32,835 nucleotides of DNA from Bacteroidales bacterium (GTDB taxonomy: Bacteria > Bacteroidota > Bacteroidia > Bacteroidales > JAADGE01). Below the pieces are notes generated by a model. The model saw nothing but the letters and a program-made list of their open reading frames with translations. It was not told the origin of the DNA and made no database searches. Below, piece by piece: positions 110 through 18,615 of this stretch. How positions within the stretch are numbered: position 1 is the stretch's first letter; every line of letters starts with the position of its first letter. Both the position numbers and the translations under genes were made by a program. The DNA is taken from contig JAOZMB010000003.1 of assembly GCA_029934515.1 (NCBI GenBank), positions 1-32,835 of the forward strand, written 5' to 3'.

Positions 110-1390
110 CTAAATTCCAAATGCTTCTTTAACTTTTTCTATATAATCTAATTTTTCCCAAGCAAAGAATTCTACATCTTTTGTATATTTATCTCCATTT
201 TTTGAAAAAGTTACTTTTTTTGTAAATGGTTCTCTTCCGAAATGACCATAAGAAGCAGTTTCTAAGAAAATAGGATTTTTTAATCCGAAACGTTTAATGA
301 TAAAAGCTGGACGCATATCAAAAATAGTTTTAACAATTTTTGCAATTTCTCCGTCAGATTTTTTTACGTTGGAAGTTCCGTAAGTATTTACGTAAAGCCC
401 TACTGGTTCGGCAACACCTATTGCATAAGCTACCTGCACTAATATTTCTTTTGCAACACCTCCAGCGACAAGGTTCTTTGCAATATGCCTTGTTGCGTAG
501 GCTGCTGAGCGGTCAACTTTTGAGGCATCTTTTCCCGAGAACGCTCCACCTCCATGCGCACCTTTACCGCCGTATGTATCAACAATAATTTTACGTCCTG
601 TCAATCCAGTATCTCCATGTGGGCCACCGATTACAAATTTCCCTGTTGGATTGACAAATAAACTCATATCTTTTCCAAATAATTTTTGTAATTTTTCTGA
701 GAGTTTATCTTTTACACGTGGGATTAGTATTTTTTTAATATCATCTTTTATTGTTTTAAGCATTTCATTGTCTGCTTCTTTTTGTGTTTTCGTGCTTGAT
801 GCTTTAACAAAATCGTCATGCTGTGTCGAAACTACTATCGTATCGATTCTTACTGGAATATTATCATCACCGTATTCGACTGTAACTTGCGACTTTGAAT
901 CTGGTCTTAAATATGTCATTTCTATACCTTTGCGTCTTATTGCGGCAAGTTCTGTCAATAACAAATGAGCAAGGTCAAGTGCAAGTGGCATATAATTATC
1001 TGTTTGGTCGGTTGCATAACCAAACATCATTCCTTGGTCTCCAGCTCCTTGTTCTTCTGTTGTTTCGCGAATAACTCCTTGGTTTATATCTGCCGATTGT
1101 TCATGTATCGAAGATATTACTCCACATGATTCACTGTCAAATTTATATTCGGCTTTTGTGTAGCCGATTTTTTTGATAACATTTCTTGCGGTTTTTTGAA
1201 CATCAACCCATGCTTTGGTCTTCACTTCGCCGCTTAAAACTGTCAATCCAGTTGTTACAAGTGTTTCACAGGCGACTTTTGAGTCTGCGTCTTGTTTAAG
1301 GAATTCATCCAACAATGCATCTGATATTTGGTCTGCTACTTTGTCTGGGTGTCCCTCAGATACTGATTCTGATGTAAATAAATAAGGCAT
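110..1390 (-). CDS. metK: S-adenosylmethionine synthetase
   Basis: Makes S-adenosylmethionine from methionine and ATP in the cytosol, releasing phosphate and pyrophosphate. The 426-residue product is full length for Bacteroidota members, which are longer than the E. coli enzyme. Visible motifs are GHPDK at residues 13-17, GAGDQG at 115-120 (the ATP-binding region), GGPHGDTGLTGRK near residue 257, and the glycine-rich P-loop-like GGGAFSGKD near 280. The ATG start is unambiguous because the SESVSEGHPDK block follows within the first 17 residues. It is transcribed alone from a strong TAnnTTTG promoter at 1517-1547 through a SAM-II-like leader, so its own product is expected to repress it. It lies downstream of ftsI on the same strand but is separated by 427 bp holding a riboswitch, hairpins and a repeat. 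Confidence 0.98.
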   Translation of the reverse strand: MPYLFTSESVSEGHPDKVADQISDALLDEFLKQDADSKVACETLVTTGLTVLSGEVKTKAWVDVQKTARNVIKKIGYTKAEYKFDSESCGVISSIHEQSADINQGVIRETTEEQGAGDQGMMFGYATDQTDNYMPLALDLAHLLLTELAAIRRKGIEMTYLRPDSKSQVTVEYGDDNIPVRIDTIVVSTQHDDFVKASSTKTQKEADNEMLKTIKDDIKKILIPRVKDKLSEKLQKLFGKDMSLFVNPTGKFVIGGPHGDTGLTGRKIIVDTYGGKGAHGGGAFSGKDASKVDRSAAYATRHIAKNLVAGGVAKEILVQVAYAIGVAEPVGLYVNTYGTSNVKKSDGEIAKIVKTIFDMRPAFIIKRFGLKNPIFLETASYGHFGREPFTKKVTFSKNGDKYTKDVEFFAWEKLDYIEKVKEAFGI

Positions 1391-10711: not shown

Positions 10712-11695
10712 TTAAAAGAATATTTGTAATTGAAGCGATGCTGTGTAATTTTTAATATTATTATCTATAACTTGGAAATAATTATCAAACATAATTTTAA
10801 GTTTATGCTTGTTTATCAGGTAATTATATCCTAATCTATAATATGGTTTATCATTTGTTTCGTCTATTATATCAGTGTAATTTTCGTAAGAAATAATTAT
10901 TTGATTTTTCTTGAAATTAAATGTTGTCAGTAAATAGTATCCGTTTGCAGATTGTTCGTTTATATTTGCGTTTAAATATTCTGCTTGGAATTCAATAAAT
11001 TTATTTTTAAATAAAACAAAAAAATTATATCTAAAATCATTACCATTTAATATTGTTGTATCTGGAATAAGTTTTTTTATTTTTAAATTTTCTGCTTTTC
11101 TGAGCGCAATAGAATATCCAATTTTTATTTCACTTTTATTGTTTGGTTCGAAATTCAAAGATGTTTTATGCGTTGCAAGGTAGCCATTATTCTCAAACCT
11201 ATATTCTTTTATTCCGTATCCGTTAAACAATCCAGCATAAGTTTCCAAAAGTTTATTTTTTGTCTGAAATTTTATCTGCATTCCTATATCTCTCATATCA
11301 AGTGAGCCGTTAACATACAATCTGTTAATTGGTTTTGTCCTTTCAATTGTTGTTATTTTATAATCAACTTGAAACATTTGCAAACTGTATGCTGGTTTGA
11401 ACTGTCCGATATCAAATTTGAACAGACCTGCTTTATATCCAATTTTTACGTCTTGCAGAAAGAATTTTTGTTGTTGGAAACTTGTTATTATTGTTTGAAT
11501 TTTATAAGACCATTTTTTTGAGAAGTCTGGAGTCGATTTTGACCAAGCTTTCAATCTTCGTAAAGCGAAACCATGATTATCATCAAAATTACTTGATGCT
11601 CTAATCTGTGCGTATCCGTTCCATTCTATCGAACTTTGTGCATTTGTAAAGCCTGTGCTAACTATTAATAGAAGAATAATTATTTTATATTTCAT
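10712..11695 (-). CDS. Porin O/P-type outer-membrane porin
   Basis: A 327-residue outer-membrane barrel. A signal peptide ends near TNAQ (residue 20), followed by WNGYAQIRA, FALRRLKAWSKS and VKIGYKAGLFKFDIGQFKPAY, which are typical of phosphate-selective porin O/P family members. The chain then alternates beta-strand and short turns and ends in LQLQIFF, with the aromatic last residue expected for BAM recognition. It likely lets small anions or sugars diffuse across the outer membrane; the substrate cannot be read from sequence. It stands alone on its strand; a TAAATTTG -7-like site lies 11 bp before the start. Confidence 0.8.
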   Translation of the reverse strand: MKYKIIILLLIVSTGFTNAQSSIEWNGYAQIRASSNFDDNHGFALRRLKAWSKSTPDFSKKWSYKIQTIITSFQQQKFFLQDVKIGYKAGLFKFDIGQFKPAYSLQMFQVDYKITTIERTKPINRLYVNGSLDMRDIGMQIKFQTKNKLLETYAGLFNGYGIKEYRFENNGYLATHKTSLNFEPNNKSEIKIGYSIALRKAENLKIKKLIPDTTILNGNDFRYNFFVLFKNKFIEFQAEYLNANINEQSANGYYLLTTFNFKKNQIIISYENYTDIIDETNDKPYYRLGYNYLINKHKLKIMFDNYFQVIDNNIKNYTASLQLQIFF

Positions 11696-11705
11696 TTTAA
11701 AATAT

Positions 11706-11713
11706 CAAATTTA
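11706..11713 (-). promoter_or_regulatory. Putative -7 element for porin gene
   Basis: TAAATTTG on the minus strand matches TAnnTTTG, but it would leave only about 5 nt of leader before the ATG and no -33 box is evident. Weak support. Confidence 0.35.
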
Positions 11714-11879
11714 TTTTTTTTATGTTTACTGTCGGCATTGTTTCAAATCACACAGACAGTATTAAACAAATACTTTTTTATATCAGGTTAATTTATCATT
11801 GTCAAAAGTGTCTCCAACATTCCAAACCCAAACTCTATGATTTTCAAGCACTCTAAAACTTTCACGCTGTAAAATTTTA

Positions 11880-11887
11880 TATTTTTG
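11880..11887 (+). promoter_or_regulatory. Putative -7 element for the small Cys protein
   Basis: TATTTTTG matches TAnnTTTG. It overlaps the only alternative in-frame initiation codon of the small gene (TTG at 11885-11887), which argues that this TTG is not a translation start. Confidence 0.5.
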
Positions 11888-11911
11888 CAAAATTATTTAA
11901 ATTTCATTTAT

Positions 11912-12109
11912 AATGAAAAAAAAAAAAGAAAATGTAATGATGCAACTCGGTTTGAGTTAAAAGGACAGGAGATGCACAGAATATTTCCGGGAGACATGGC
12001 AATTGGAACAGGAGATATTTTTAGCTTCTCATATTGCCTTGACTGCGGACAAATACAAGATGACTTTCCACTATTTAGAACAACTTTTGAAAAATTCTAC
12101 GATTTATAA
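11912..12109 (+). CDS. Small CxxC protein behind a 12-A run (frame slip at start)
   Basis: A reading frame of about 60 residues encodes KCNDATRFELKG, HRIFPGDM and FSFSYCLDCGQIQDDFP, a compact Cys-containing protein with a zinc-knuckle-like CLDCG. I do not recognise the family. The only ATG in a sensible place (11912) is followed directly by twelve A residues and is one base out of frame with the protein; 13 or 10 A would place MKKKK in frame. The open frame itself begins only at TTG 11885, inside a promoter-like element. Explanations are transcriptional or translational slippage on the A-run, phase variation, an indel error in the assembly, or a recently inactivated gene. A hairpin terminator follows at 12142-12197. 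Confidence 0.55.
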   Translation, partial: NEKKKRKCNDATRFELKGQEMHRIFPGDMAIGTGDIFSFSYCLDCGQIQDDFPLFRTTFEKFYDL

Positions 12110-12141
12110 ATCGTAAATAAAGTTTGAAATTATAGAAAAAT

Positions 12142-12197
12142 AAGTCGTAGCTTGGATATTTAATTTATATGTTACAAATAAACCCAAGCTTTGACTT
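12142..12197. terminator. Bidirectional terminator between convergent genes
   Basis: AAGTCGTAGCTTGG (12142-12155) pairs with CCAAGCTTTGACTT (12184-12197) as 5+7 bp with a 2-nt internal mismatch. It lies between the small plus-strand gene and the minus-strand DUF4465 gene. Confidence 0.6.
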
Positions 12198-12209
12198 TAT
12201 TGATGAATA

Positions 12210-13190
12210 TTATTTGATTATTTTGTGTGTGTAAGTTCTTGTTTTTGTTTTTATATTAATAAAATATAATCCAGATTTCAGATTACTAAGCTGTAATTCT
12301 ATGTTGCCAGAGCAGTTCTTTTTTTCCAAAATAACCTTTCCAGTAATATCACTAAGTGAAATATTAGCTTCCTCAATATTTTCAATTTTAATAAAATCGG
12401 AAAAAGGATTTGGATATATATTAAAATATTTATTGTTTAAGTTTTCTGTATTGGCAACATAATCAAGAGTCAAATTATCAACACAATAATATGCTGGCGT
12501 AAAATCATCACTTGTTTGATAAGAAATTTCAATACCGTGAGTCTCACCAAGTGCAGATAAATCTACCCAAGTCCAGTTGTCAATAATATATGAGTTCCCG
12601 TTTGTAAAATCGGCAAGATAAAATTCAACAAAATTACCAGTGTACTGATTATTAACCATACTTTTGAATATTAGTTTGTAATAATCACCTGTTTCATAAA
12701 TACCGTTACCTGTTCCGTCTGTTCCGTTCATGTAATGATATGCCCATGTTGAGTTTGTAAAATATGCTCCATTCGCAATTTGAATGCCACAACAATAAGA
12801 TACATCAAACTGGATTGTGTCTTTATCGAACATGTATCCAATAGCATAATTTTCTGTGTTCTCGCAACCGCCTCCATTTGGGTAGTTTGAGTATGAACTA
12901 AAATTAGTCCAATCGGCAGTGTTCAAATCAGTTTGGTTTGAGTATGCTGTCCCCGACCAGTAATCATAACCATTCTCAGGTGTATAAAATACACGAAAAG
13001 TTCCATTGATGCTCTGAAATACAAATTTCTCTGTAACTCCTATCGTTCCACTGTGCTGTGTTGAGCCGTTAAAATATCCTTCTTCTGGCACTATTAAATC
13101 TTCAAAATCAGTGATAACAACGTTCTGCGAAATAGCGCAAAAATGTGAAAATACAATAATAATTATTGCAGTTAATAATAAATTTTTCAT
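12210..13190 (-). CDS. T9SS-exported DUF4465 protein, likely B12-binding (BtuH-like)
   Basis: A 326-residue secreted protein. A signal peptide (about 1-21, ending AISQ) is followed by a DUF4465-like domain (about 25-248) with FEDL near residue 30, WSGTAYSNQTD near 78, NYAIGY near 115 and a beta-sandwich pattern. The C-terminal 75 residues are a type-A T9SS sorting domain: YPNPFSDFIKI near 260, DITGK, LKSGLYFINI and a basic IKTKT...HKIIK end. From memory, DUF4465 is the family of the Bacteroides B12-binding lipoproteins called BtuH. Independent support comes from a cobalamin riboswitch directly upstream on the same strand. Predicted location is the cell surface or medium via T9SS, in contrast to the lipid-anchored Bacteroides proteins. 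No btuB or btuG is beside it. Confidence 0.8.
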   Translation of the reverse strand: MKNLLLTAIIIIVFSHFCAISQNVVITDFEDLIVPEEGYFNGSTQHSGTIGVTEKFVFQSINGTFRVFYTPENGYDYWSGTAYSNQTDLNTADWTNFSSYSNYPNGGGCENTENYAIGYMFDKDTIQFDVSYCCGIQIANGAYFTNSTWAYHYMNGTDGTGNGIYETGDYYKLIFKSMVNNQYTGNFVEFYLADFTNGNSYIIDNWTWVDLSALGETHGIEISYQTSDDFTPAYYCVDNLTLDYVANTENLNNKYFNIYPNPFSDFIKIENIEEANISLSDITGKVILEKKNCSGNIELQLSNLKSGLYFINIKTKTRTYTHKIIK

Positions 13191-13258
13191 AAAAATATAT
13201 TTAAAAATAAAAAAAATACTTCATATCCAGAAAGTTCTTATTTTTTATATAGAATAAA

Positions 13259-13425
13259 CGGCAGGTCTTCTGACTTACTTCATATTTTCAAAAAGCCTTC
13301 CCATAAGTTATTGTTTAATACATAAACACTTACAGTGGCAAAAAGGAGGTTTCTTTGAAAATTTTGGAAGTTTACAGCAGCTGGTACTGTTGTCGATTTT
13401 CACGACATTCCCTCTTATTTTAATA
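13259..13425 (-). promoter_or_regulatory. Cobalamin riboswitch
   Basis: Read on the minus strand the element contains AGAGGGAATGTCGTGAAAAT, ACAGTACCAGCTGCTGTAA, GCCACTG, GGGAAGGC and, at the 3' end, the B12 box AAGTCAGAAGACCTGCC. This is the conserved order of the adenosylcobalamin-type aptamer. It ends 68 nt before the DUF4465 gene. No strong terminator is visible in the linker, so control may be at translation initiation. Confidence 0.92.
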
Positions 13426-13457
13426 TTAGAACAAATAATTAAAATCCATTTAAAGTG

Positions 13458-13465
13458 CAAATGTA
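13458..13465 (-). promoter_or_regulatory. Putative -7 element for the B12-riboswitch transcript
   Basis: TACATTTG on the minus strand matches TAnnTTTG and would start the RNA near 13451, about 26 nt before the aptamer. No clear -33 box is visible. Confidence 0.55.
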
Positions 13466-13590
13466 AAACTTTTTTGTAAAAAACGGCTTAATACTTGTGT
13501 TTTATTTTTTTTTTATTAAAAAGTAAAATAAAATATTTAAATTTAAATAAAAAATTATATATTTCGGGTTTCAAATTATAGTATTTTTTT

Positions 13591-15282
13591 ATGAAAATAA
13601 GAACAAAATTACCGCTATTTACAAGTATAATTGTTTTAATATCAATAGTTTCCATCACGATATATGCTATCTATGATTTCCGTATGAAGACGCTTGAAAG
13701 TATTGAATTATACAGAGTTGAACAGACAAATATAATAAAAAACCAACTAAAAGACAATGTAAACAATGCCTATAAAATAATTGAGATGGCACATGAAATG
13801 GCTATTTCTGTTGGCGATTTTAAACAAAAAACAGATACCGGTTATGTTGAAAATAAAGTTACAATTTCTAATTTTCTACGTCTTACTCTGGAAAATATAA
13901 GAATAATGCGTTACCGTGAAGCTGGTTATATTTGGATAAATGAGATTGAACCGCCTTATACTGTAATTTTGCATCCTATCCGACCAGAAATAGAAAGTAC
14001 AGCACAGGTTTTTTATATAAAAGATACACAACAGAATGTATATGAAGCATTTGCAGAGGTAATTTATGATGAAAATGGTGCTGGATTTCTTAGATATGAT
14101 TTCTACAAACCAGGAACAAACGAAAAAATACCTAAATTAAGTTATATCAGATTATATGAACCTTTTGGCTGGATACTTGGAACAGGAGTTTATATTGATT
14201 ACATAGATAAAATGGTTAGTCTTAAGACAGAACAGCTTTACGAACAGACCAACAAAATGATTAAATACATAATTGTTTTTGGTGTTGTTCTTATAGCTCT
14301 TTCTACAATTGCTTTATATTTTATAGGAAAAGTTATTACAGATTCTATATATTTTGTAAAAGAGCAACTTTTTCAAATGTCAAAAGGTCATATTATAAAA
14401 AAAAGTCCTAAGATGAGGAAAGATGAATTAGGCGAAATGACAAACTCGCTAAACGACCTAATAGGCGGAGTGAATTCTTACTCAGAGTTTGCTTTAAATA
14501 TAGAAAGTGGAAACCTTGATGCTGATTTTAAACCACTTAGCGAAAATGATAATCTTGGAGTCTCTTTATTAAAAATGAGACAAAGCCTAAAAACTGCTAA
14601 AAAAGAAGAAGAAAATAGAAGAATCGAAACAGAACGCAGGAACTGGGCAAATGAAGGATATACAATGTTTAGTGACCTGATGAGAAAAAGCAGCGACGAC
14701 CCAGTGTTAATGTCTTTTGAGATAATAAATAATCTGGTAAATTATTTAAATGCTATAATTGGTGGTTTGTTTATTGAAAATGACGATGACAAAAAAAATC
14801 CTCATTTCGAACTAATAGCATCTACAGCATATAATAGACGAAAATTTAAACAGAAAATAGTTAGAAGAGGAGAAGGTCTAATAGGAGCTTGTGCACTTGA
14901 AAAACAAAAAATTTATCTAACAAACGTTCCAAACGATTATGTTGAAATACGTTCAGGACTTGGAACAGCAAATCCAAACTCTATATTAATAGTTCCGCTG
15001 ATGATAGAAAGTAATGTTATAGGAATTATCGAACTTGCAGCTTTTAAAAAATTTAAAGAATTTGAAATACAATTTGTTGAAAAAGTATCCGAAAGTATAG
15101 CGGCAGCTGTTTATTCTGCAAAAATTAATGTAAGAACATCGGGACTACTGGAAGGAGTGAAAATATTTGATGATGAAAAAAATAAATTAATAGCAAATAT
15201 TAAAGATAAAGAAAAACAAATAAAAAAATTAAAAAGACAGTTGAGAATTGAAAATTCTAAAAAATCAATATTTGAAATTTAA
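13591..15282 (+). CDS. Cache-HAMP-GAF membrane sensor without output domain
   Basis: A 563-residue receptor-like protein. An N-terminal membrane helix (about 9-28) and a second (about 225-247) bracket an extracytoplasmic single Cache domain (sCache_2 type) with YIWINEIEPP, ILHPIRPE near 130 and a GAGFLRYDFYKPG block, a ligand-binding fold for small organic acids. A HAMP region follows (about 248-300), then a GAF domain (about 365-510; GEGLIGACALEKQKIYL, ILIVPLMIESNVIGIIELA). The chain ends in a lysine-rich coiled coil (about 515-560). No histidine kinase, methyl-accepting, GGDEF or PP2C domain is present. It may pass its signal by protein contact. The fused transporter gene starts 99 bp downstream with no obvious separate promoter, so the two may be co-transcribed. 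Confidence 0.85.
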   Translation: MKIRTKLPLFTSIIVLISIVSITIYAIYDFRMKTLESIELYRVEQTNIIKNQLKDNVNNAYKIIEMAHEMAISVGDFKQKTDTGYVENKVTISNFLRLTLENIRIMRYREAGYIWINEIEPPYTVILHPIRPEIESTAQVFYIKDTQQNVYEAFAEVIYDENGAGFLRYDFYKPGTNEKIPKLSYIRLYEPFGWILGTGVYIDYIDKMVSLKTEQLYEQTNKMIKYIIVFGVVLIALSTIALYFIGKVITDSIYFVKEQLFQMSKGHIIKKSPKMRKDELGEMTNSLNDLIGGVNSYSEFALNIESGNLDADFKPLSENDNLGVSLLKMRQSLKTAKKEEENRRIETERRNWANEGYTMFSDLMRKSSDDPVLMSFEIINNLVNYLNAIIGGLFIENDDDKKNPHFELIASTAYNRRKFKQKIVRRGEGLIGACALEKQKIYLTNVPNDYVEIRSGLGTANPNSILIVPLMIESNVIGIIELAAFKKFKEFEIQFVEKVSESIAAAVYSAKINVRTSGLLEGVKIFDDEKNKLIANIKDKEKQIKKLKRQLRIENSKKSIFEI

Positions 15283-15381: not shown

Positions 15382-18300
15382 ATGAAAAGTATAAATAATA
15401 TATTAATAAATTCATTAAATATTAAACAAGAGGAAACTAAAAAGTTTACTCTTTTATTTTTTCATTCTTTTTTCACGGGTCTATTTATTGCCTTATATTT
15501 TGTTCAAGCAAATACTGTTTTCATAAATAACTACGGCAGCGAGCAGTTGCCTATTGCTTACATGCTTGCTGGTGTTGTCGGATGGCTTAGCTCGTCAATT
15601 TATTCTTCGCTACAAAAAAGAATACATAGTAAACATTTATTTGGAGGTGCTTTGCTTTTTATGTTTATGATTACAATAATAGGTCGTTTTGCATTAGGTT
15701 ATATAGAAGAAAAATATTTAAGTTTTTTTGTTTTTATATGGGCTTGGCCATTTATTTCAATTGTTGGTATTGAGTCTGGCGGACTTGCAATAAAATTACT
15801 TAACCTGACTCAGATAAAACGTCTCTTTGGATTAATAAATATGGGCGGTGTTACTGCTTCTATAATAGGATATTTAATTATTCCTGTACTGACAAAAATT
15901 ATAGGCACTTCTTACAATTTATTTATTATAGCTGCGACAAGTCTTCTTGCTGCAATGTTGTTGCTTTATTTTATTTACAAAAATTTCCCTGAAAAAGAAA
16001 TTACAATAAAACAATCGAAAGATAAAGCTAAAACGAATTTTAAATATCTGTTGAAAGACAAATATTTTAGATTGATATTTATTTCGGCAACTCTGTCAAT
16101 GACAGTTATTTACATTGCAGATTTTGGCTTTCTGTCGAGTATAAAAATTCAAAAAGAACTATTTGCAGATTCCGATTCTGTTGCACATTTTTTGGCATTG
16201 GTATTTGCTGGAATGAAAGTTGGAGAACTTATTATGTCTTATTTTTCAAGCCGAATTCTTAGTAAATACGGCGTGAAACTTGGACTAACAATCCTTCCTT
16301 TATCAATTACTTTAATTGTAATAATTTCGACAATAACTGGTTTTACTATTGGCGCTGTAAGTGTTATATTTTTGATTTTAATGACATTAAACAAGGCGGC
16401 AGAAAGAATATTAAGAAGAGGATTAGACGACCCTGCATCAAATATTTTGTATCAACCTTTACCCGAAAATATGCAGCTTGTTGTGCAGTCAAAAGTAGGT
16501 GTTGTTATGCAATTTTCTATCGGAATTGCTGGAATAATTCTTTTTCTTATTAATATAATTTTAAACAGTAAAGATGGTTTTAAGTTAGAGTTCTTTACGC
16601 TTTTTTTTATTCCAATACTTTTGGTATGGGTTTATTTTGCTTGGAAACTTTATTTGGCATATAAAGTTAAATTGCGTGATATGTTAAAAGAATTAAGCAA
16701 AAAACGACAAAGAGATACTTCAAAATATCATTATGGAACAGAAGTATTGTCAAAAAAATTCAAAGATGTAAACGAAAATATTGTAAATCTGAGTGTTGTT
16801 ATTCTCTCAGAAACAAACCCCAGAATTTTCGAACCTCATGTTGCTTCACTACTAAGAAAAAATGACCCTCTTATAAAAAAAGCAGTTTTGAGAAATATCG
16901 ACCCAACATGGAGAGAAAGAATAACAAGATATACAAAAAAAATATACAAGGAAACAAATTCATTAGAAATAAAAAAAATTGCTGAAAAAGTCAATTATTT
17001 GCTTGATTTTTCGGAAACAAAAAATATAACAAAAGATATTATTGAAGTCTTGATGAACTCGAATGATATAGATGATAAAGTAAAACTTATTAAATATTTA
17101 ATAAAGAAAAAAACAGATGTAAATGATGAAATTATTTTATTACATTTGTTAAAACAAAAAGATAAAATAATAAAAAATGCAGCAATTAGATTATCTGTAA
17201 ATATCAAAACAGACAAAATAATAAAGAAACTAATATTCCTTCTCTGCTCGCCAGAGTTTTATCACACAAGTACTGCTGCAATTTTGGATATTGGTGAACG
17301 CACTTTGCCTTACCTCGAAGAGTTATTTGAAAGCACAAAAGAAAATGATATTATTCTTAAAATAATAGAAATATATGCAAAAATGGGTTCTACTCCAGCC
17401 AAATCATTGCTTGCAAGTGCAATTAATTATCCAGACCGTAAAGTTCAATTATCAGCTATATGGGCATTGTACTATTGTAAATATCAGGCTGTTGAGTCGG
17501 AGCATGATATTATAAAGAAAAAAATCCTTGATGTAACAGAAAACTTATTATGGATTTTGGCTACTATAAAAGATATAGAAGAAGAAAAAAATACATTAAA
17601 ACTTTTTCTTGCCTTAGACCAAGAAAAAGTAAATAACCACGAACTTTTATTTAATTTACTTAGCTTTCTTCACGACCCAAGAGTTGTTAATTTGATTAAA
17701 AAAAATATTATAGGAAAAAATACGATATATGCTCTTGAACTAATTGATAATTTTATTATTCCTGATTTAAAACCTTATATAATTCCAATTTTTGAAGATA
17801 TCTCTGTTGCTCAGCGAATAAAAAAATTAGCTAAGTTCTTCCCACAAGAAAAAATGAAATTTATGCAAAGATTACGAGCTATTGTTTTGAGAGATTTTGA
17901 CAAACTTGATAAATGGACAATTGCAAAAGCACTGGAAATGATGGGTAAAGTGCAGAGAAAAAGAAATATAGCAAATAAATTAATCAGAAAACATATAAGT
18001 TATGATGACATAACAATCTGGAAAAAAGAAAATACAAATCTTGTTCTTAATCAAATAAAAAGAAGTGAATTACCAGATGAAGTATTTTTGGCATTATTTC
18101 ATAAAAACGAACTTGTATATTCAACTGCGGCAAAAATAATTTATGATGAAAATCCAGACAAGTGTATAAATTATCTTGAAAAAATGTCGGAAGAAAAGAA
18201 AAATCTTATAAAAATATTTACAGAAGGAGGGTTTCTTTTGCAGGATAAAATAAGATTATTACGAAGATATCAATTATTTTTTACTCTTCCTGATTACCTT

Positions 18301-18615
18301 CTTATTAGAATTGCAGAGCTTGTAAAACCAAATATATTAGAGCGAGGCAAAAAAATTTACTTCTCAGAAAATGGTAGTGAAAATATATTAATTTTGATAA
18401 GAGGTATTTTGATATACAAAAAAGGTCTGAGCGATGAGCATATATTTAAGAAAAAAATAATAGTTACTCCGGGTATGAACATAGAGCAAAATGCGGAATA
18501 CCTTACGGCTGTGAAAAAAACAACTGTCTTAGCTATAAACAGGTATAAATATTTTAATCTGCTTGTTGATAAAACAGAAATACTTCAACAAATATTTGAT
18601 GTAATTAAGAAATAA
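15382..18615 (+). CDS. ADP/ATP-translocase-like carrier fused to HEAT-like solenoid and degenerate cNMP-binding fold
   Basis: A 1077-residue three-part protein. Residues about 20-430 form 11-12 membrane helices of the Npt1/Npt2 (ADP/ATP carrier) or related MFS type; IALYFVQANTVFINNYG near 36, IESGGLAIKLLNLTQIKRLFGLINMGG near 132 and RILRRGLDDPASNILYQPLP near 341 are the recognisable parts. Residues about 440-940 are helical repeats resembling HEAT (ILDIGERTLPYLEELF, AIWALYYCKYQAVES). Residues about 969-1077 have a cyclic-nucleotide-binding-like beta-roll, but the phosphate-binding cassette is not recognisable (GMNIEQNAEYLTAV instead of GE.AL..R.A), so ligand binding is doubtful. Transport of nucleotides is unproven. 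It follows the Cache-GAF sensor by 99 bp and ends at a perfect bidirectional hairpin. Confidence 0.78.
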   Translation: MKSINNILINSLNIKQEETKKFTLLFFHSFFTGLFIALYFVQANTVFINNYGSEQLPIAYMLAGVVGWLSSSIYSSLQKRIHSKHLFGGALLFMFMITIIGRFALGYIEEKYLSFFVFIWAWPFISIVGIESGGLAIKLLNLTQIKRLFGLINMGGVTASIIGYLIIPVLTKIIGTSYNLFIIAATSLLAAMLLLYFIYKNFPEKEITIKQSKDKAKTNFKYLLKDKYFRLIFISATLSMTVIYIADFGFLSSIKIQKELFADSDSVAHFLALVFAGMKVGELIMSYFSSRILSKYGVKLGLTILPLSITLIVIISTITGFTIGAVSVIFLILMTLNKAAERILRRGLDDPASNILYQPLPENMQLVVQSKVGVVMQFSIGIAGIILFLINIILNSKDGFKLEFFTLFFIPILLVWVYFAWKLYLAYKVKLRDMLKELSKKRQRDTSKYHYGTEVLSKKFKDVNENIVNLSVVILSETNPRIFEPHVASLLRKNDPLIKKAVLRNIDPTWRERITRYTKKIYKETNSLEIKKIAEKVNYLLDFSETKNITKDIIEVLMNSNDIDDKVKLIKYLIKKKTDVNDEIILLHLLKQKDKIIKNAAIRLSVNIKTDKIIKKLIFLLCSPEFYHTSTAAILDIGERTLPYLEELFESTKENDIILKIIEIYAKMGSTPAKSLLASAINYPDRKVQLSAIWALYYCKYQAVESEHDIIKKKILDVTENLLWILATIKDIEEEKNTLKLFLALDQEKVNNHELLFNLLSFLHDPRVVNLIKKNIIGKNTIYALELIDNFIIPDLKPYIIPIFEDISVAQRIKKLAKFFPQEKMKFMQRLRAIVLRDFDKLDKWTIAKALEMMGKVQRKRNIANKLIRKHISYDDITIWKKENTNLVLNQIKRSELPDEVFLALFHKNELVYSTAAKIIYDENPDKCINYLEKMSEEKKNLIKIFTEGGFLLQDKIRLLRRYQLFFTLPDYLLIRIAELVKPNILERGKKIYFSENGSENILILIRGILIYKKGLSDEHIFKKKIIVTPGMNIEQNAEYLTAVKKTTVLAINRYKYFNLLVDKTEILQQIFDVIKK

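Follow-up and report, generated by a model that had tools for sequence, protein, structure and literature searches.

Why should a single gene for an exported protein lie behind a cobalamin riboswitch, and what would its product do with no B12 transporter gene at its side? The question is raised by a locus in the window (the whole 32,835-nucleotide stretch of Bacteroidales DNA that we analysed). A covariance search places a cobalamin riboswitch aptamer (RF00174) at positions 13243 to 13465 on the minus strand, with 79.7 bits (E-value = 2.8e-18) against a gathering score of 31.5 bits. The match, read from 13465 to 13243, spans all 189 model positions and is of full length. Behind it, an ORF of 326 amino acids (12210 to 13190, minus strand) corresponds to a BtuJ-type (DUF4465) protein with a T9SS tail, according to Pfam, NCBIfam and the predicted fold. 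A preliminary description of this DNA had already named the aptamer and its strand, and the covariance search bears it out. The description also gave a gap of 68 nt between aptamer and gene; the position is close, but the distance from the B12 box to the ATG at 13190 is 69 nt.

The window protein and its family

The hydrophobic N-terminus of the window protein (residues 1 to 22; 13125 to 13190, minus strand) ends in ...FCAISQN and reads by eye as a Sec signal peptide without a canonical lipobox; all 17 sequences of our DUF4465 alignment A3 have Gln22. The DUF4465 domain (PF14717, 102.8 bits, cut-off 25) occupies residues 75 to 240 (12471 to 12968, minus strand), with the HI-loop T231-P232-A233-Y234 intact. 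It is followed at residues 258 to 326 (12213 to 12419, minus strand) by a T9SS type A C-terminal sorting domain, recognised by Pfam (Por_Secre_tail PF18962, residues 258 to 325, 58.9 bits, cut-off 27), by NCBIfam (TIGR04183, 58.2 bits, cut-off 23) and by fold. Signal peptide, domain and type A tail are those of the preliminary description, which was also right to see the tail in place of a lipid anchor, the sorting domain being over both cut-offs and no canonical lipobox being present.

A sequence search of the PDB with the window protein returned DUF4465 proteins first, namely 9hmu (E-value = 3.8e-16), then BtuJ1 9fct (3.4e-9). The profile A6, built from 18 DUF4465 sequences, matched 9hmu with an E-value of 3.8e-46. 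The AlphaFold model of the window protein (pLDDT 83.4, 18 sequences) aligns with 9hmu_A at a VIA-align Z of 27.6 (206 aligned residues, 2.1 Å; Foldseek E-value = 4.2e-16) and with BtuJ1 9fct_A at a Z of 24.9 (211 residues, 2.6 Å); BtuJ2 gives a Z of 20.7. The C-terminus of the model fits the T9SS substrate domain 8glk_D (Z 11.0, 71 residues, 1.6 Å). The predicted model of the window protein has the augmented jelly-roll fold seen in 9HMU and in 9FCT.

The closest solved structure, 9HMU, is that of D5EK51 from Coraliomargarita akajimensis, a bacterium of another phylum. The chain in that structure (250 aa) extends no further than the DUF4465 match and so holds no T9SS tail. Passages of PMC13398666 state that this structure was solved in complex with B12, and that eight divergent DUF4465 proteins bind B12, with identities as low as 16%. 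BtuJ1 and BtuJ2 of Bacteroides thetaiotaomicron, identified as DUF4465 proteins in passages of PMC12751083 (BT_1491, BT_1957; IPR027828), have in common with the window protein the jelly-roll, the HI-loop T-P-x-Y, an extracytoplasmic location (predicted for the window protein) and a B12-riboswitch-controlled locus. In the same passages they carry a lipidation signal and lie in operons with btuB/btuG, whereas the window protein has a T9SS tail and stands alone at its locus.

The window protein is a BtuJ homologue, linked to a B12 riboswitch and T9SS-tailed, an identification that is real and well supported. A role in B12 capture, as the preliminary description had it, is likely from the combination of a riboswitch with DUF4465, whose tested members bind B12.

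We take the C-terminal targeting motif IPR026444 to be the T9SS sorting domain. Passages of PMC12751083 record this motif on 229 of 824 DUF4465 family members, another C-terminal motif on 88 and a lipoprotein signal on 275, so that a T9SS-delivered binder is not the novel variant that had been supposed. The terms 'T9SS' and 'type IX' are absent from the main texts of PMC13398666, PMC12751083 and PMC10404256, and 'T9SS' from PMC8941943. A literature search pairing BtuH with 'type IX secretion' found nothing; one on 'type IX secretion' with cobalamin and riboswitch returned only the case of Flavobacterium psychrophilum, where, in the excerpt concerned, the gene behind a cobalamin riboswitch is that of a TonB-dependent transporter.

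Capture and transport genes in this genome and its relatives

The RF00174 match of the window is the only one in its genome (3.34 Mb, 201 contigs, 98% complete). Profile searches located BtuB at C58:15629-17521 (E-value = 8.6e-153), BtuG at C26:3941-4990 (1.5e-111) and a member of a T9SS-tailed, BtuH-like family, c10, at C20:33173-34153 (4.7e-126; also L208:6168-7172). All three are on contigs other than the window's, and unrelated genes flank each of them. The preliminary description had noted the lack of a neighbouring btuB/btuG; this is true of the neighbourhood, but both genes exist elsewhere in the genome. The BtuB found here scores 121 bits against TIGR01779, far under the cut-off of 600, and the BtuB tested from a relative scores 114 bits. 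The next hit of the A1 search in this genome, on C7, scores 106 bits against 509 for the C58 protein and was not taken as a second BtuB.

Near btuB and btuG, the riboswitch model R1, built from 28 aptamers and run with filters off, reached at best 10.4 bits (L111, 7800-9000) and 12.4 bits (L110, 1-5000). By comparison, 73 of its 75 hits in the wider loci described below (best 80 of 561) score at least 81.7 bits, the other two being L153 (43.0) and L167 (40.3). An Rfam search of L110-L114 at E-values up to 5 gave no cobalamin riboswitch, nor did the whole-genome RF00174 search give one upstream of c10. To judge from the sequence, btuJ, btuH-like, btuB and btuG genes appear dispersed in this genome, with a detectable switch on the catcher only.

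The genome scan for T9SS that the preliminary description had proposed finds SprA (2641 bits) and PorU (1249 bits), both over cut-off. Profile A5 matched the genome at 53 places, and in 52 of these the match was to the T9SS-tail part of the profile. Three B12-dependent enzymes, MetH, methylmalonyl-CoA mutase and IcmF, are all over their cut-offs, and there is one FecCD permease gene. CbiD has no match and PF00590 (TP_methylase; corrin/SAM methylase-type) has one, so that neither known corrin-ring route is evident from the two markers searched. The organism looks like a B12-dependent scavenger, because it has three B12-dependent enzymes and no detected corrin-ring pathway, and from its gene content it seems unable to make B12.

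A DUF4465 match is found in 18 of 21 family-level genomes (own included), and in all 18 an RF00174 match lies 275 to 424 bases upstream of the domain match on the same strand, by distances worked out by hand from the match positions. Since the linkage is seen in 18 out of 18, chance is excluded as the cause of the pairing. Divergent from the window gene are a dCache-GAF protein (13591 to 15282, plus strand; cluster c4), which marks a conserved locus, and a 1077-aa protein with an MFS and a weak HEAT match (15382 to 18615, plus strand; cluster c5). Each cluster has 14 members, of which 13 lie close to a DUF4465 gene, and because these neighbours are kept beside DUF4465 we take the locus to be orthologous in those genomes.

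Four genomes (G003, G009, G013 and G014) present the order riboswitch, DUF4465-T9SS, c10, BtuB, BtuG; the gene families of this order were tested on G009, and the BtuB frame is partial in G013 (376 aa) and G014 (491 aa). Nine others (G001, G006, G007, G010, G011, G012, G015, G016 and G019) have two riboswitches, one before DUF4465 and the other before c10 (G001) or before a protein of about 470 aa (the remaining eight), in either case with BtuB next. Examples of these 470-aa proteins behind the second riboswitch are L083:6238-7647 and L082:7410-8840; one of them was tested, and Pfam recognises in it a T9SS tail and nothing else over cut-off. Genome G005 (L121/L210) has c10, BtuB and BtuG and neither a DUF4465 nor an RF00174 match, catcher and switch being absent together. 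In G004, L062:3762-4748 seemingly encodes two tandem DUF4465 domains, seen as two matches, the second below cut-off, in one 329-aa frame cut by the contig end.

The wider loci (L122-L201) are the best 80 of 561 confirmed places from a contig scan with alignment A3. R1 finds the riboswitch in 75 of these best 80 of 561, one being cut by a contig end, and in 64 of 69 once 11 loci on family- or order-genome contigs, whose aptamers trained R1, are removed. The loci without it are L127, L163, L166, L183 and L185, of which L127, L163 and L183 start inside the first gene. A T9SS tail is present on 79 of the 80 DUF4465 proteins (best 80 of 561), a count that is biased upwards because the query itself is T9SS-tailed. 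The first gene behind the riboswitch is DUF4465 in 53 loci, BtuB in 20 and another gene in 2, with no riboswitch in 5, and BtuB or BtuG lies on the same strand within reach in 41 (best 80 of 561). Sequence of 5 kb or more is available downstream in 35 of the DUF4465-first loci (same best 80 of 561); 15 of them have BtuB or BtuG in reach and 20 have neither, so the lone catcher is frequent. A riboswitch followed by a T9SS-tailed DUF4465 protein is a common arrangement in related bacteria. The window has the same riboswitch and tail; its genome differs in that BtuB and BtuG lie on contigs apart from it, where no cobalamin riboswitch was detected. Eleven DUF4465-T9SS proteins of the wider set (best 80 of 561), six of them from Prolixibacteraceae, are 537 to 583 aa long (L136, L137, L139, L141, L142, L145, L147, L149, L151, L156 and L159), and their extra N-terminal part is unmatched by the c10 profile.

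It is highly probable, in our judgement, that the locus makes an extracellular B12 catcher when B12 is scarce, feeding BtuB/BtuG encoded elsewhere. At low B12, the aptamer, of type I with an L5-L13 kissing loop, would leave the short leader open, allowing the DUF4465 protein to be made; once B12 is bound, expression would fall, as the riboswitch class leads one to expect. The protein would be exported by Sec first and then, through its C-terminal domain, by T9SS, ending outside the cell, at its surface or in the medium. Like BtuJ1, BtuJ2 and D5EK51, it would bind cobamides with its jelly-roll, and would then hand them to the outer-membrane BtuB/BtuG pair. This hand-over is not implied by gene order, because BtuB and BtuG are on other contigs.

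Depending on the species, proteins with type A T9SS tails can be released or can become attached to the surface. The window protein may, although we think it rather unlikely, be released to the medium as a diffusible B12 catcher, a 'cobalophore' comparable to a haemophore, instead of being anchored at the surface. Type A tails would permit this; the gene is apart from btuB/btuG here, as in the 20 of 35 loci with neither (best 80 of 561), and passages of PMC12751083 place BtuJ on vesicles in B. thetaiotaomicron. The genome nevertheless encodes PorU, the sortase that attaches cargo, which makes surface attachment equally possible.

The riboswitch and its leader

The proposal of a catcher made when B12 is scarce relies on a working switch. 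The B12 box AAGTCAGAAGACCTGCC, read from the sequence at 13260 to 13276 (minus strand), is intact in the window, and its columns are invariant or nearly so across the 28 aligned aptamers. The Rfam match overlaps at its 5' edge with the block TACATTTG (13458 to 13465, minus strand), whose A, TTT and G are likewise invariant or nearly so in the 28; the block fits the Bacteroidota -7 promoter element TAnnTTTG and is a candidate for it.

The tetramer of the L5 kissing loop is CCAG (13381 to 13384, minus strand) where the other aligned aptamers have CCCG, the third base being C in 27 of 28 and A in the window alone. Downstream, a P13-like hairpin, acttt-CTGGATAT-gaagt (13218 to 13235, minus strand), has in its loop CTGG (13230-13227), which is the complement of the L5 CCAG, so that kissing-loop complementarity is present. 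CTGG occurs within a hairpin loop in 0.74% of mononucleotide-shuffled window tails. In the wider loci (best 80 of 561), CCCG is found in the L5 region of 73 of 75 aptamers, the larger aptamer part having been searched where that region is unbounded; the exceptions are L153, which is weak, and L167, which is cut. Beyond the B12 box, a hairpin loop contains CGGG in 55 of the 75 loci (best 80 of 561), against 4.6% of mononucleotide-shuffled tails in a run that left out L153, L167, L143, L150, L189, L152 and L172. The matched double change of L5 and L13 in the window, a single case, is modest evidence for a maintained L5-L13 contact.

The 69-nt leader of the window is short, since 13 of the 14 relatives listed have 120 to 185 nt and the remaining one, L122, has 72 nt; by eye, the outer helix shown by most of the 14 is missing from it. 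From the shorter leader and the missing outer helix it follows that switching may be altered. The aptamer score of 79.7 bits also compares with 92.5 to 111.3 bits for the other 17 family-level DUF4465-linked aptamers. One might then suppose that the riboswitch is decaying, with the shorter leader and the changed L5 as marks of lost function. We regard this as improbable, since the downstream loop carries a change complementary to that of L5 and the B12 box is intact.

A promoter scan of 11600-13600 yielded 15 sites against a shuffle mean of 13.0, that is, no excess. The terminator scan of the same region yielded 1 against 0.7, the sole terminator-like site lying inside the gene; a terminator switch is unsupported, since the scan does no better than shuffles. 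Our guess is that the riboswitch of the window controls translation. The window also carries a SAM-II riboswitch (RF01726) at 1450-1509 on the minus strand (53.6 bits, gathering score 44), about 60 nt before metK (110-1390, minus strand).

Ligand of the DUF4465 domain and the partner c10

Sequence alignment with BtuJ1 replaces the contact residues Tyr146, Tyr97 and Asn241 by Trp149, Trp94 and Phe230 in the window protein; near the first of these, the DE-helix tyrosine position, Tyr151 stands two residues further than Trp149. Given these aromatic swaps and the Asn-to-Phe change in the pocket, the domain could have drifted to another ligand, with the riboswitch kept for an indirect reason. This appears very improbable to us: none of the 17 A3 sequences departs from the HI-loop T-P-x-Y (preceded in the window protein by Phe230 and not by Asn), B12 binding extends to members as divergent as 16% identity in the passages of PMC13398666 quoted above, and the riboswitch linkage is nearly universal across the loci examined (best 80 of 561; 18 of 18 at the family level). 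T-P-x-Y is also invariant in the 18 sequences of A6, which partly overlap A3 and were gathered with a pattern demanding T-P-x-Y, so that invariance there is built in.

The family c10 is present in 31 of the 80 wider loci (best 80 of 561), 13 of which provided its profile, and is found alongside BtuJ, BtuB and BtuG (for example L140:8965-9957 and L065:7672-8661). In 18 of 18 members the T9SS tail is the only Pfam match over cut-off, the best of the weak others having an E-value of 0.0038, and a sequence search of the PDB at an E-value of 0.001 or better gave T9SS-tail matches only. The predicted c10 model (pLDDT 89.1) aligns in VIA-align with BtuH 7biz_B (Z 12.2, 156 residues, 2.9 Å) and with the H-domain part of BtuG1 8blw_B (Z 11.2, 175 residues, 3.9 Å), the next non-tail match having a Z of 9.4. 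Foldseek places the BtuG1 chain 8blw_B first (E-value = 2.4e-4), and 7biz is not among the matches listed. In L160 (same contig as L077), L165, L174, L183 (cut by the contig end) and L078, c10 is fused to DUF4465. From its predicted fold and its context, we read c10 as a putative T9SS-exported, BtuH-like B12 binder.

The preliminary description had counted BtuH among the DUF4465 proteins and had looked to BtuH for the structure of the window protein. Passages of PMC8941943 and PMC10404256 treat BtuH as a B12-binding protein distinct from BtuJ, and it is BtuJ (BT_1491, BT_1957) that is DUF4465; a text search of BtuH's own paper, PMC8941943, finds neither 'DUF' nor 'PF14717'. BtuH2 of B. thetaiotaomicron (7BIZ) likewise serves B12 capture on the Bacteroidota surface, with a different domain. 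Its fold is matched by c10, whereas the top Foldseek and VIA-align matches of the window protein are all DUF4465 proteins, 9hmu_A at their head, and BtuH was rejected as its identity. No BtuH is among the matches listed for the window model by either program, although such an absence proves nothing. That the locus encodes a BtuH-type binder working without btuB/btuG is barely credible: Bacteroidota use BtuH as well as BtuJ to bind B12 at the surface, and a c10 of BtuH-resembling fold accompanies DUF4465 in 31 of 80 loci (best 80 of 561), but the Pfam, PDB sequence and best fold matches all point to DUF4465/BtuJ, and BtuB and BtuG exist in the genome.

A BtuJ-type catcher feeding BtuB/BtuG encoded elsewhere remains our preferred reading; less expected are that the switch is kept only on the catcher and that the partner c10 is T9SS-tailed and BtuH-like. 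As a tentative generalisation, which we put forward with considerable doubt, environmental Bacteroidota may run a T9SS-secreted two-protein cobamide capture (BtuJ and a BtuH-like protein, separate or fused), maybe diffusible, and the lineage of the window may have its sensor on the catcher alone, with the transporter uncoupled. If so, B12 scarcity would alter the capacity for capture and not that for transport. The locus places the 2025-26 finding that DUF4465 proteins bind B12 in T9SS-bearing Bacteroidota beyond the gut genus Bacteroides, where a T9SS-tailed BtuH-like family with no dedicated Pfam domain travels with BtuJ and is sometimes fused to it. It also offers a clean test case, with one riboswitch found, one predicted exported binder, no corrin synthesis detected and the transporters elsewhere.
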